A DNA stretch of 64,000 bases from Euzebya tangerina (GTDB lineage: Bacteria > Actinomycetota > Nitriliruptoria > Euzebyales > Euzebyaceae): assembly GCF_003074135.1 (NCBI RefSeq), contig NZ_PPDK01000003.1:1-64000 (forward strand). The letters are read 5' to 3'. Of the stretch, positions 3,960 through 17,852 are shown piece by piece; within the stretch, counting starts at the first letter, position 1, and each line of letters opens with the position of its first letter. The translations under genes and the position numbers were made by a program. The notes beneath the pieces are model-generated. The model was not told the DNA's origin, did not search any database, and was given only the letters and a program-made list of their open reading frames with translations.

Positions 3960-4445
3960 TCAGGAGATGCCGCTGCCGAACAGTGCTTCGGTGTCGCCCA
4001 AGTGCCCCAGGAGCACCTGCCCGTACTCGCGAGTCGCCTCCTCGGCCTGGGCCGACGTGGTGTCGAACTGCCGCCCGACTTCCTGCAGTGAGGCGTTGAG
4101 GTTGTCGGCGGCGCCGCGGAACTCGGCGTAGGCCTCGGCCATGGCGGCGCGGGTGCGGTCGATGGAGCCGACCAACTCGCCGGTGGCGCCGCGGAAGCGG
4201 TCGGAGCTGGCCCCGGTCCACTCGGCCCCGTCGGTTGCCGTGAGGGTGCTGGCGGTGTCCTGGCCCAGTGTGTCGAGGGCGGCGTTCAAGCGCGGCTCGG
4301 TGGCCTGGGCCTGGGCCAGCAGCCCCTCGACCTCCTCGATGATGGCTTGGACCTCGGCGCGGGTGCCGGCGACCGACCCGGCCTGGTTGGTGTAGCGGTT
4401 GACCTCCTCGCTGACGCTCTCGGTCCCCATGGTGAGCTGTGGCAT
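3960..4445 (-). CDS. WXG100-like helical protein
   Basis: A 161-residue, mostly helical protein with one central W-x-G turn (EWTGASSDRFRGA, near residues 75-87) between two long helices, the layout of WXG100/ESAT-6-like type VII secretion substrates. It is longer than the usual 100 residues. The ATG at 4445 has a purine-rich ribosome site (GGAGAAGGGAA) about 4 bases upstream. Downstream on the same strand lie a truncated second gene and a fragment resembling the C-terminus of an FtsK-type ATPase. No intact secretion machinery is present in the window, so whether the protein is exported is unknown. Confidence 0.6.
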   Translation of the reverse strand: MPQLTMGTESVSEEVNRYTNQAGSVAGTRAEVQAIIEEVEGLLAQAQATEPRLNAALDTLGQDTASTLTATDGAEWTGASSDRFRGATGELVGSIDRTRAAMAEAYAEFRGAADNLNASLQEVGRQFDTTSAQAEEATREYGQVLLGHLGDTEALFGSGIS

Positions 4446-14690: not shown

Positions 14691-15518
14691 GTGGAGCAGC
14701 TCAGCCAGGACTCATCGGCGCAGCACGACAACCCGCTGTCCCGCAGCCGTTCCCTCCTGCTCGGCGTGGTGGCCGGGGTCCTCGCCGGGCTCTTCGGCGT
14801 GGGTGGGGGCGTCATCCTGGTGCCCGGCCTGGTCTGGCTGGCACGGCTGCCCCAACACCAGGCCCATGCGACCAGCCTGGCCGCGATCATCGTCACCGCG
14901 CCCGCTGCGCTCGCCCCGTTCGCCGCCGAGGGGGACGTGGCCTGGCCGGCAGCGGCCGCGCTGGCAGCCGGCGCGGTCCTCGGAGCCGTGGGAGGTGCCG
15001 GTGTGATGAGCCGGATCCCCGCCGGGACGCTCCGCCGGATCTTCGGCGGGTTCATGCTCCTGGTCGCCGCGCGACTGGTGGCGTCGGCCTCGGGAACCGG
15101 CGCGGCAGAGGAGGCCGCGCTGGCGGTGACCACGGGGGCCATCGTCGGTCTCGCGGTCACCGGGCTGGTCACCGGCCTGCTGAGTGCGCTGATGGGTGTG
15201 GGGGGCGGCATCGTGATGGTGCCGGCAATGGTGATCGGCTTCGGCTTCGATCAGCACCTGGCCCAGGGCACCTCCCTGGCCGTCATCGTGCCGACCGCCG
15301 TGATCGGGGCGTGGCGCCACACCCGTCGTGGCTACACCCGGTGGTCCATCGGCCTCCTGGTCGGCGCCGGAGGGGTCCTCGGCGGGTTGGCCGGCGCCGG
15401 CCTGGCACAGCTGCTCCCGGCGCGGGAGTTGCAGATCGCCTTCGCCGGCCTGCTGGTCGTCTCGGGAGTGCGCCTGATCCGCAAGCGGCCAGCTGCCGCG
15501 GGGGTTGCCCGTGAGTGA
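14691..15518 (+). CDS. sulfite exporter TauE/SafE-family permease
   Basis: A 275-residue polytopic membrane protein with about eight helices in two similar halves. Each half carries the family glycine motif: GLFGVGGGVILVPGL near the start and ALMGVGGGIVMVPAM in the middle. A conserved QAHATSLAAIIVTA is matched by LAQGTSLAVIVPTA in the second half. The family exports sulfite, sulfoacetate or related organic anions. GTG 14691 follows a GAGGA ribosome site; an in-frame GTG at 14643 would add 16 residues. The 3' end overlaps the start of the kinase gene by eight bases, so the two are translationally coupled. Substrate unknown. Confidence 0.9.
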   Translation: MEQLSQDSSAQHDNPLSRSRSLLLGVVAGVLAGLFGVGGGVILVPGLVWLARLPQHQAHATSLAAIIVTAPAALAPFAAEGDVAWPAAAALAAGAVLGAVGGAGVMSRIPAGTLRRIFGGFMLLVAARLVASASGTGAAEEAALAVTTGAIVGLAVTGLVTGLLSALMGVGGGIVMVPAMVIGFGFDQHLAQGTSLAVIVPTAVIGAWRHTRRGYTRWSIGLLVGAGGVLGGLAGAGLAQLLPARELQIAFAGLLVVSGVRLIRKRPAAAGVARE

Positions 15519-16839
15519 CCTGGCCCCCGGCGCACGAATCGGCCCGTACGTGATCCGCAGCGTGGCCGGCCGCGGTGCGGTCGGCGTGGTCTACGCCGCC
15601 GATCACGAACAGCTCGACCGGCGCGTCGCGATCAAGACGCTGAACTCGCAGCTGGTCGGCGAGGAGACCTACCGGGCGCGCTTCCTCCGCGAGGCCGAGG
15701 GTGCCGCCCGCTTCGACCACCCCAACATCATCAACGTCTTCGACGCCGGTGAGCACGAGGGCGCCCCGTACCTGGTGATGACGTACGTGACCGGACCCGA
15801 CCTCGAGCAGGTCCTCTTCGACCGTGGCGGCAAGCTGGAGCCGGCCGAGACCGTGCTGATCTGTGCGGCCATCGCGGCGGCGCTCGACGCTGCCGGCGCG
15901 GTCGGCCTGGCCCATCGCGATGTCAAGCCGGCGAACATCATGTTGGAGGGCTGGGAGCCCGAGCGGTACGGCGGCCGACGACGGCGCCCGCACGTGTACC
16001 TGACCGACTTCGGGCTGCTCAAGTCCTCGGCGCAGGCGACGCTGACCAAGACCGGCCAGTTCGTGGGCACCCTGCTGTACATGTCGCCGGAGCAGATCAA
16101 CTCCGCGGCCGTCCCGGCGAGTGACCAGTACTCGTTGGCCTGTGTCATGTGGGAGTGCCTGACCGGCGACTACGCGTTCCGGCCGACCGGGAACTCGGTG
16201 CTGTCGCTGATCAAGGCCCACCTGACCGCGGATCCGCCCTCCATCTCACAACAGTCCGGCGGGATGTTGCCTGCGGCAGCCGACGCCGTGTTCCGGCGGG
16301 CACTGGCGAAGGACCCGTCGGAGCGCTTTGCGACCTGTACGGAGTTCGTGGACCACGCGACGCGGGCCCTGGGGCTTGGCGCGAGCGCGCCGCGCGTGGA
16401 GCCTGCTCCGCCGCTCGCGGCCGTCAACACGACGGCTGAGCTCGAGCGACGGCACCAGGATGACGATCGGGCCAGGCGCGATGGGGTCAGGCGCGATGGG
16501 TCGGTGACCCCTCCATCGCTGGCGGACCTCCCCCCGGTGCCGCTGGGTGACCTTCCACAGTCCGCGCCGGCAGACCTTCCTCCGGTCCCGCTGGGTGCCG
16601 ATCCGGTGTCGCCGGGGCAGCCGTACCCCTCGACGACCGATCCTGTCGCGGGAGCCGGAGATGCTGGTGCCGCCAGGTCAGGCCCCGTGGCCCCTCAGGA
16701 GCACGCCGGTCAACTGCCGCCGACCAACGTCCCGGCCCCCTCCCCCGGAGCTGACCGGCAGGTGAGGCGGATCGTGCTCGCGGTCCTCGTGGTGCTGGTG
16801 GTGGTGGCGCTGGCCGCCCTCGGCCTCTGGCTTCGATAG
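15511..16839 (+). CDS. serine/threonine protein kinase, PknB-like
   Basis: A 442-residue membrane kinase. The Gly loop is GRGAVGVVYAAD, the ATP-binding lysine is in RRVAIKTL, the catalytic loop is HRDVKPANIM, the metal site is DFGLL, and MSPEQ is the APE-equivalent, so catalytic residues are intact. After the kinase domain (about residues 1-290) comes a Pro-rich segment. One transmembrane helix (IVLAVLVVLVVVALAALGLW) lies at the very end with only an arginine beyond it, so there is no external sensor domain. GTG 15511 overlaps the upstream permease gene, implying coupled expression. It may sense via the TauE partner or simply be membrane-tethered. Confidence 0.93.
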   Translation: MSDLAPGARIGPYVIRSVAGRGAVGVVYAADHEQLDRRVAIKTLNSQLVGEETYRARFLREAEGAARFDHPNIINVFDAGEHEGAPYLVMTYVTGPDLEQVLFDRGGKLEPAETVLICAAIAAALDAAGAVGLAHRDVKPANIMLEGWEPERYGGRRRRPHVYLTDFGLLKSSAQATLTKTGQFVGTLLYMSPEQINSAAVPASDQYSLACVMWECLTGDYAFRPTGNSVLSLIKAHLTADPPSISQQSGGMLPAAADAVFRRALAKDPSERFATCTEFVDHATRALGLGASAPRVEPAPPLAAVNTTAELERRHQDDDRARRDGVRRDGSVTPPSLADLPPVPLGDLPQSAPADLPPVPLGADPVSPGQPYPSTTDPVAGAGDAGAARSGPVAPQEHAGQLPPTNVPAPSPGADRQVRRIVLAVLVVLVVVALAALGLWLR

Positions 16840-16881: not shown

Positions 16882-17100
16882 CGACTCTCGGTACACCGCG
16901 GCCGGGCCTCCCACTCTCGGTGCACGCCGGGCAGCGCTGGCCGCGACCATGTGCTGAGAGTCGGCTCCCACCTGGCCAGGTACAACTCTCGGCACACTCG
17001 TCTTCACGGTTAGGCCGAGATCGTGTACCGAGAGTCGTTCGGGATCACGACGGCGTCTACTGAGAGTCGGCCGGACCCTGACGGCGTGTACCGAGAGTCG
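16882..17100. repeat. cluster of seven 15-bp motifs (GTGTACCGAGAGTCG)
   Basis: Seven copies of a 15-bp motif, consensus GTGTACCGAGAGTCG, lie between convergent genes. Plus-orientation copies are at 16949, 17023, 17055 and 17086; minus-orientation copies are at 16882, 16911 and 16983. Three (16882, 17023, 17086) are identical; the others differ by 1-3 bases. Start-to-start spacing is 29-40 bases, near three helical turns. The copies at 17023 and 17086 continue with TTCGGGA. No open frame here has a plausible start. The motif is not seen elsewhere in the window by eye. Its identity is unknown. Confidence 0.8.
16983..17037. terminator. possible bidirectional hairpin between convergent kinase and DoxX genes
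   Basis: The motif copy at 16983-16997 is complementary to the one at 17023-17037 at 13 of 15 positions, giving a stem with a 25-base loop. It lies between two genes that end toward each other, so it could stop transcription from both sides. It forms part of the seven-copy motif cluster. Confidence 0.35.
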
Positions 17101-17114
17101 TTCGGGACCCTGGA

Positions 17115-17594
17115 TCAGCCGCCGTCGCGCCGGATCCGCAGCGCCCACCAGATCAGCGGGAGCTGGAGGGGGAGGCGCAGGATCGCCGCCGTCCGAGATC
17201 CCAACCAGCCGTCGACCGGTAGGCCACCCGACAGCACGGTGTCGATGTTGGCCGGGAAGACCGCGATCAGCGTCGCCGCAGTGAGGGTCCCCCCGAACCG
17301 ACGGGTCCTGCGGTTCAGCAACAGACCAGCACAGAGGACCTCGACCACGCCCGAGCCGTACGTCAGCGGGCGGTGCAGCTCCTCCGGGATGGCTCGTGGC
17401 ATGACCATGTCGTAGGCCGCCGGAGCCAGGAAGTGGGTGATGCCGGCTCCGCCCATCAGCGCGGCCAGGCCGAGAACCCGCCACGAGGGTCGGGGACGCC
17501 CGGAGGGTGGTGGACCTGCATCGCCTGTGGTTCGACCGCGGCGGGGCTGGAGTCCGCCTGACTGCTGGGCCGTCTTGCCTCCACTCGCGGTCAA
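17115..17594 (-). CDS. DoxX-like membrane protein
   Basis: A 159-residue protein with about four membrane helices. The DoxX-type core is LGLAALMGGAGITHFLAP, AYDMVMPRAIPEELHRPLTY, GSGVVEVLCAGLLLNRRTRR and AVFPANIDTVLSG. Family members are small membrane proteins often linked to redox or thiol stress, with no firm enzymatic role. TTG 17594 was chosen because a strong GGGGAGG site lies four bases upstream on the minus strand. The first 40 residues are hydrophilic. The leader region of this gene contains nine copies of an 18-bp tandem repeat. Confidence 0.8.
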   Translation of the reverse strand: MTASGGKTAQQSGGLQPRRGRTTGDAGPPPSGRPRPSWRVLGLAALMGGAGITHFLAPAAYDMVMPRAIPEELHRPLTYGSGVVEVLCAGLLLNRRTRRFGGTLTAATLIAVFPANIDTVLSGGLPVDGWLGSRTAAILRLPLQLPLIWWALRIRRDGG

Positions 17595-17692
17595 TTCGCC
17601 TCCCCCGTTGTCGGGCTTCTCGGTGCTGCTGCGGCCCAGTGGGCCATCCTGCCTCCGCCTCGCGGCCGATCTGGGTTCGCCGGAGGCAGTTT

Positions 17693-17852
17693 GACCACAC
17701 CAGGCCGACTGACCACACCAAGCCGACTGACCACACCAGGCCGACTGACCACACCAAGCCGACAGACCACGCCAGGCCGACTGACCACGGCAGGCCGACT
17801 GACCGCGCCAGGCCGACTGACCACACCAGGCCGACTGACCACGGCAGGCCGA
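17693..17852 (+). repeat. 18-bp minisatellite, nine units
   Basis: Eight full units and one partial unit of GACCACACCAGGCCGACT lie head to tail between the start of the DoxX gene and the end of the upstream NAD-binding gene. Substitutions are limited to a few positions (ACACC, ACGGC, GCGCC; one CTC/ACA-type change). Because the unit is a multiple of three, it stays open in several frames, but no frame has a start with a ribosome site. It lies in the leader of the DoxX gene and could vary in copy number. Confidence 0.9.

Follow-up and report, generated by a model that had tools for sequence, protein, structure and literature searches.

The window analysed here is a 64-kb stretch of Euzebya tangerina DNA (genome G000). 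Between positions 16882 and 17100 it carries seven 15-bp sites of the GTGTACCGAGAGTCG type, four in one direction (+) and three in the other (-), which start at 16882(-), 16911(-), 16949(+), 16983(-), 17023(+), 17055(+) and 17086(+), that is, at start-to-start distances of 29, 38, 34, 40, 32 and 31 bp. Our recount agrees with the original prediction of seven copies in both orientations, 29-40 bp apart and three of them identical (those at 16882, 17023 and 17086), and the sequence TTCGGGA indeed directly follows two copies. In whole-window shuffles the motif has a chance background of 3.14 matches per 64 kb at up to three mismatches, so that the probability of meeting seven sites in any one given stretch of 219 bp is about 3e-18. 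The array and its surroundings are composed as follows:

15511..16839, + strand: flanking gene for a Ser/Thr protein kinase
16882..16896, - strand: outer (extra) site, GTGTACCGAGAGTCG
16911..17037, + strand: core element (-)38(+)34(-)40(+), retrieved with profile R1 (E = 7e-22, this core being one of the training sequences of the profile)
16911..16925, - strand: core site 1, GTGCACCGAGAGTGG
16949..16963, + strand: core site 2, the most degenerate, ATGTGCTGAGAGTCG
16968..16974, + strand: slot of the central TGACCTG box, which reads CCACCTG in this array
16983..16997, - strand: core site 3, GTGTGCCGAGAGTTG
17023..17037, + strand: core site 4, GTGTACCGAGAGTCG
17055..17069, + strand: outer (extra) site, GTCTACTGAGAGTCG
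17086..17100, + strand: outer (extra) site, GTGTACCGAGAGTCG, a tandem copy of the site-4 unit with a period of about 31 bp
17115..17495, - strand: flanking MauE/DoxX-like gene, its stop at 17115 and its start not fixed
17588..17697, no strand assigned: probable degenerate element of a second G000 motif family (GGAGGCA..)

The last of these features lies 0.5 kb from the seven-site array. Its sites, at 17588(-), 17641(-) and 17682(+), have the 53/41 spacing found at the gene cognate to this second family (L125, G000:C3:71917-72945), and the copies of the family seen in the stretches that were inspected are all degenerate. An 18-bp tandem repeat, TGACCACACCAGGCCGAC, is present in nine copies at positions 17692-17852; it starts within the last site of the GGAGGCA.. 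element, as if it had grown out of this element.

The genome-wide search proposed with the original prediction gave a clear result. In the 4.78 Mb of G000, 57 motif sites (31 + 26) were found at up to two mismatches against 9 (6 + 3) for the reversed motif, and 29 against 0 at up to one mismatch. When grouped, the 57 sites form 11 strong cores and some weaker ones, making about a dozen arrays. Nine cores consist of four sites arranged as (-)38(+)34(-)40(+), or as the mirror image 40/34/38, with a variation of 1 bp at most; in two further cores the inner sites have diverged. A TGACCTG-like box, located between the two inner sites, determines the side of a core, and extra sites are found almost solely outward of the core, - on the left and + on the right. 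As the spacers are unrelated in sequence, the G000 cores are not recent copies of one element. The profile built on the core, R1, which uses sequence only, retrieved the 11 strong cores of G000 and seven in the same-genus genome G001; its training sequences match by construction, and four of the G001 elements are outside the training set. The G001 cores keep the 73/41 geometry with a motif variant, GTGCACYGAGAGTYC, and have a palindrome, TGACCNNGGTCA, behind site 1. The same search detected no significant core in G002 and G003, two other genomes of the genus.

These results bear on two of the simplest accounts, namely a local duplication and a classical REP/BIME element moved by a RAYT transposase, which together retain a negligible probability. 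Few copies elsewhere in the genome would have spoken for duplication only; the dispersal of cores with a fixed geometry excludes it, although some of the outward copies are locally duplicated. The resemblance to REP/BIME elements is real, since the G000 units are dispersed, mostly intergenic and inverted. The BIME mosaics of E. coli consist of alternating inverted units with fixed spacers and extra tandem copies and are mostly intergenic, and our arrays share all of these traits with them, fixed spacer lengths included, while they differ by having no REP sequence, no RAYT and another unit size. Moreover, the Y1_Tnp domain of RAYT proteins (PF01797) has no match in G000, a 98%-complete genome, while the control search was positive in E. 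coli and four other genomes. The proposed REP/BIME-like nature thus stands as an analogy (dispersed, intergenic, inverted, retained in place), but membership of REP/BIME or REPIN-RAYT is excluded by the missing Y1_Tnp, as far as the 98%-complete genome shows.

The window array does lie between convergent genes, as originally described, but this is not general: arrays are found between convergent, tandem and divergent genes, several of them right after stop codons. Such mixed contexts indicate that they are not ordinary terminators or operators. A replichore-oriented, KOPS-like site was also considered and rejected, core orientations being mixed even 1.3 kb apart. A function at the RNA level, as a bidirectional terminator or a structured intergenic RNA, would agree with the arrays behind stop codons and with the complementarity of opposite-strand sites, which can pair. 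Nevertheless, we regard it as very improbable: alifold gave a covariation term of only -0.15 of -13.76 kcal/mol, so the stem once proposed between two copies finds no covariation support, left and right sites differ in number, divergent genes border some of the arrays, and the spacing of the sites points to duplex DNA.

Indeed, same-orientation distances of 21-22, 53-54 and 72-76 bp recur despite different motifs, and an inverted partner site is found at 38-41 bp in most motif families. When pooled, the same-orientation distances show a 10.5-bp phase (R = 0.52, n = 223, the points not being fully independent because of tandem copies), compared with R = 0.13 at a period of 9.5 and 0.11 at 12. 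One pair of orthologous elements (L253/L233) is about one helical turn longer in both species. Together with the near absence of covariation, this phasing speaks for arrays that would be occupied by a protein complex on duplex DNA.

A candidate for such a protein is encoded in G000 itself. A 332-aa gene (L043:5346-6344, which is G000:C1:3385948-3386943) lies between two cores, and so does the G001 homologue, which is 55% identical and has another gene context. Across the four genomes of the genus (G000-G003) there are eight homologues of this gene, and each of the eight has arrays of its own motif in either flank, no further than about 450 bp away:

L043: GTGTACCGAGAGTCG
L110: GTGCACCGAGAGTTC
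L125: GGAGGCA..TGCCCG
L126: CACGGATCGACTCCG
L127: CACGGATCGACCAC
L128: GGATGGATTCGACATC
L129: GACGGAATCGCCTCAC
L130: TGACGGATCTTGACCCA

These motifs were read by eye off repeat lists, and that of L125, which scores 12 in the cross-flank comparison described below and so falls under its threshold, is defined by its geometry. The matrix of motif counts against genes is near-diagonal, with appreciable cross-matches only in the related pairs L043/L110 and L126/L127. The three other genus motifs that were searched genome-wide are all dispersed, with 66 matches against 1 for the control in G001, 41 against 1 in G003 and 17 against 0 in G002. Furthermore, G002 and G003 each contain just six matches for the motif of the other's gene, the motif of their own gene being commoner. 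The coupling between gene and arrays is therefore well supported, and the idea of binding sites for a DNA protein is the best supported of those first put forward, with a putative cognate protein now in hand. The cores in the two flanks are inverted at L043 and direct at L110 and L125, and a transposon with terminal inverted repeats was rejected on this ground.

The L043 protein is matched in Pfam by DUF559 and weakly by AbiEi_4, and in PADLOC by AbiEi (2e-13), while NCBIfam holds no model for it. In a structure model with a pLDDT of 92, residues 1-204 resemble the AbiEi antitoxin 6y8q_A (Z 10.3, rmsd 5.3, 187 aligned residues), and residues 205-303 resemble both the I-Bth0305I homing-endonuclease domain 3r3p_A (Z 11.9, rmsd 2.1, 94 aligned) and Vsr 1cw0 (Z 9.5, rmsd 2.3, 96 aligned). 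Residues E210, D238, E249, H255 and D262 are invariant across 36 diverse homologues. The prediction is thus a fusion protein, with an AbiEi-like module for DNA binding followed by an EDxHD nuclease of the Vsr/I-Bth0305I type. A multi-site array would agree with both relatives: one or two pairs of 23-bp inverted repeats are the binding sites of AbiEi and Rv2827c (PMC7319586), and I-Bth0305I reportedly forms a dimer on a target almost 60 bp long (PMC3943268).

These folds also show where the system would depart from its nearest structural relatives. With AbiEi and Rv2827c, which belong to the type IV toxin-antitoxin system AbiE, it shares the modelled fold of its first 204 residues and, as may be expected from it, binding to inverted repeats; inverted sites are indeed present in both flanks of the genus genes. 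It differs from them by the nuclease fusion and by sites that are dispersed rather than confined to the promoter. With I-Bth0305I and Vsr it has in common the E, D, H and D residues and the fold of its residues 205-303; it differs from them in that it is not located in an intron or intein, has an AbiEi-like DNA-binding half and is surrounded by target-like arrays. The called neighbours at L043 and L110 comprise a glycosyltransferase, a patatin-like gene and others, and none of them was called as the AbiEii-like (DUF1814 nucleotidyltransferase) toxin gene that would be expected beside an AbiE antitoxin.

The latter observation is relevant to a role in defence or self-recognition, in which the nuclease would act against foreign DNA and the chromosomal arrays would titrate, mark or guide it. 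AbiE is a known phage-resistance and toxin-antitoxin type, PADLOC models match the protein, and a fast-changing specificity would suit such a role. We nonetheless hold it to be improbable, because neither a partner toxin nor a modification gene is present among the called neighbours of L043 or L110 and because the arrays sit on the cell's own chromosome.

Outside the genus, we scanned a public genome collection of about 85,000 species at the DNA level for two inverted copies of the window motif, with no use of the protein. A single stretch was retrieved (L262), in an Actinomycetes MAG. It contains two inverted palindromes of about 50 bp, each with the 38-bp site spacing, on either side of a 340-aa ORF that a profile search assigns to the family (99.8% probability) and that also matches Pfam AbiEi_4. 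This is our one blind result. By our own estimate a few matches to this pattern would arise by chance, so that the position of the sole match at a member of the family strongly supports a link between motif and protein.

A homologue at E <= 1e-12 was found in 40 of 396 genomes drawn across the phylum. Among the 33 distant actinobacterial homologues with enough flanking sequence, ten have a cross-flank repeat with a score of at least 16, a score that control placements within these loci reach in seven of 480 cases (Fisher P = 4e-9). The other 23 have no cross-flank repeat at this score, which means that the association is common and that its universality is not established. Several distant homologues have hairpin-like repeats on either side, and the palindrome beside a more distant one occurs at four loci in G039, the genome it comes from (11 matches against 0 for the control). 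Two homologues, L160 (G006:C1:2507000-2507926) and L179 (G034:C12:107840-108655), have an in-frame stop, with inverted repeats kept on both sides of L179 and upstream of L160; they are possibly decaying loci. No relative was detected in phage and plasmid records (with L043 as query) or in IMG/VR (with profile A3), and a scan of genome contigs with profile A3 gave 45 pattern matches, none of which is a relative by tblastn.

The comparison of G002 and G003 indicates how gene and elements evolve. Around array loci these genomes are about 84-94% identical, and they share most of the compared elements at the same intergenic positions. In four orthologous element pairs the motif sites are 89% and the spacers 58% identical, a comparison somewhat biased towards the sites, as these were called by motif match. 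Among the compared elements we saw no new insertion at a formerly empty position; they look stable in place. The genes L125, L126, L129 and L130 have on one side a neighbour block common to all four species, and both flanks are common within the pairs L125/L126 and L129/L130, with one gene per motif; they group in the tree with moderate support, and their motifs are clearly different. The associated gene thus behaves as a single-copy gene under largely vertical inheritance. Within the G002/G003 pair the gene is 67% identical in DNA and 63% in protein, against 84-90% for its flanks. Stable loci and a diverged gene pair together suggest elements that are fixed in place while the gene and its specificity change fast.

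Part of this picture could also be explained by the main rival to our reading, a regulon or chromosome-organising system in which the protein is an AbiEi-type autorepressor, the dispersed arrays serve as operators or in chromosome architecture and the nuclease is not used there. AbiEi and Rv2827c autoregulate through inverted repeats at their own promoter (PMC7319586), the sites are better conserved than the spacers and the elements keep their position between species. But arrays are found on either side of the gene, often right behind stop codons and also between convergent genes, the catalytic residues are invariant in the 36 homologues, and the motif sequence turns over while the loci persist. 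We consider this explanation rather unlikely, though the most serious of the alternatives.

Altogether, we favour the reading, with a probability of roughly 0.6, that a cognate AbiEi-EDxHD nuclease, with a fast-changing specificity and a largely vertical inheritance, has the arrays as its target elements. We infer binding, cutting and propagation by repair, which could proceed as follows. The AbiEi-like N-terminal half would bind the 15-bp motif, and several copies of the protein would assemble on helically phased sites around the TGACC box. The C-terminal EDxHD nuclease would then nick or cut the DNA at the array, and repair or copying of cut elements from other copies may spread and homogenise the arrays. 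Gene and elements would be maintained jointly and shift their specificity in step, as is the case for RAYT transposases and REPINs, and the arrays flanking the gene might serve its autoregulation and its own persistence. That this amounts to a selfish or domesticated system of Actinomycetota, in which the nuclease maintains or multiplies its own motif arrays with a rapid co-turnover of protein specificity and motif at a largely vertically inherited locus, is a more tentative proposal, to which we give slightly less than even odds.

REPIN-RAYT systems, whose features we took from PMC8049555, offer the closest comparison. As in these, a population of short dispersed repeats is tied to a gene at a conserved place and flanks that gene, repeat copies are more numerous in genomes with the cognate gene, and no protein relative is known from the phage or plasmid records searched. 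Unlike them, there is no Y1 transposase, the protein being AbiEi-like with a predicted EDxHD nuclease; the elements of the genus are helix-phased multi-site arrays and not one hairpin; and the same gene locus has different motifs in different species. The open-access full texts that treat DUF559 or AbiEi together with repeats, mobility or Actinobacteria yielded no description of this association, and neither did the open-access literature on palindromic interspersed repeats. The novelty rests on a protein and a repeat architecture unrelated to REPIN-RAYT; if any pair of repeat and enzyme is taken as one kind, the array-nuclease system belongs within that kind. This work gives a testable role to one group of DUF559/AbiEi-type proteins, annotated only as of 'unknown function' or as 'antitoxin'. 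If our reading is true, they would provide a second, unrelated counterpart to REPIN-RAYT, with a long-lived repeat population linked to a single enzyme. They would also form a natural set of nuclease-like proteins, every one paired with a 14-17-bp target of its own, on which the evolution of DNA-binding specificity would be directly testable.

Finally, three positions deserve a mention. At one of them, two species have elements of different motif families (L244:3780-4300 with GACGGATCTTGACCC and L232:3800-4250 with GACGGAWTCGCCTC), as if one element had replaced the other in situ or the site had been used more than once. L127:4390-5974 in G001 comprises a gene and two arrays, and L231:3801-4184 in G003 is a solo array of another motif with no gene; their correspondence is suggestive of a homing-type pair of gene-bearing and gene-less alleles. 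At L250 and L226, around position 4200, G003 has, right next to a shared array, an insertion that contains a transposase-like reading frame and interrupts synteny; G002 has an element of the second family at this position.
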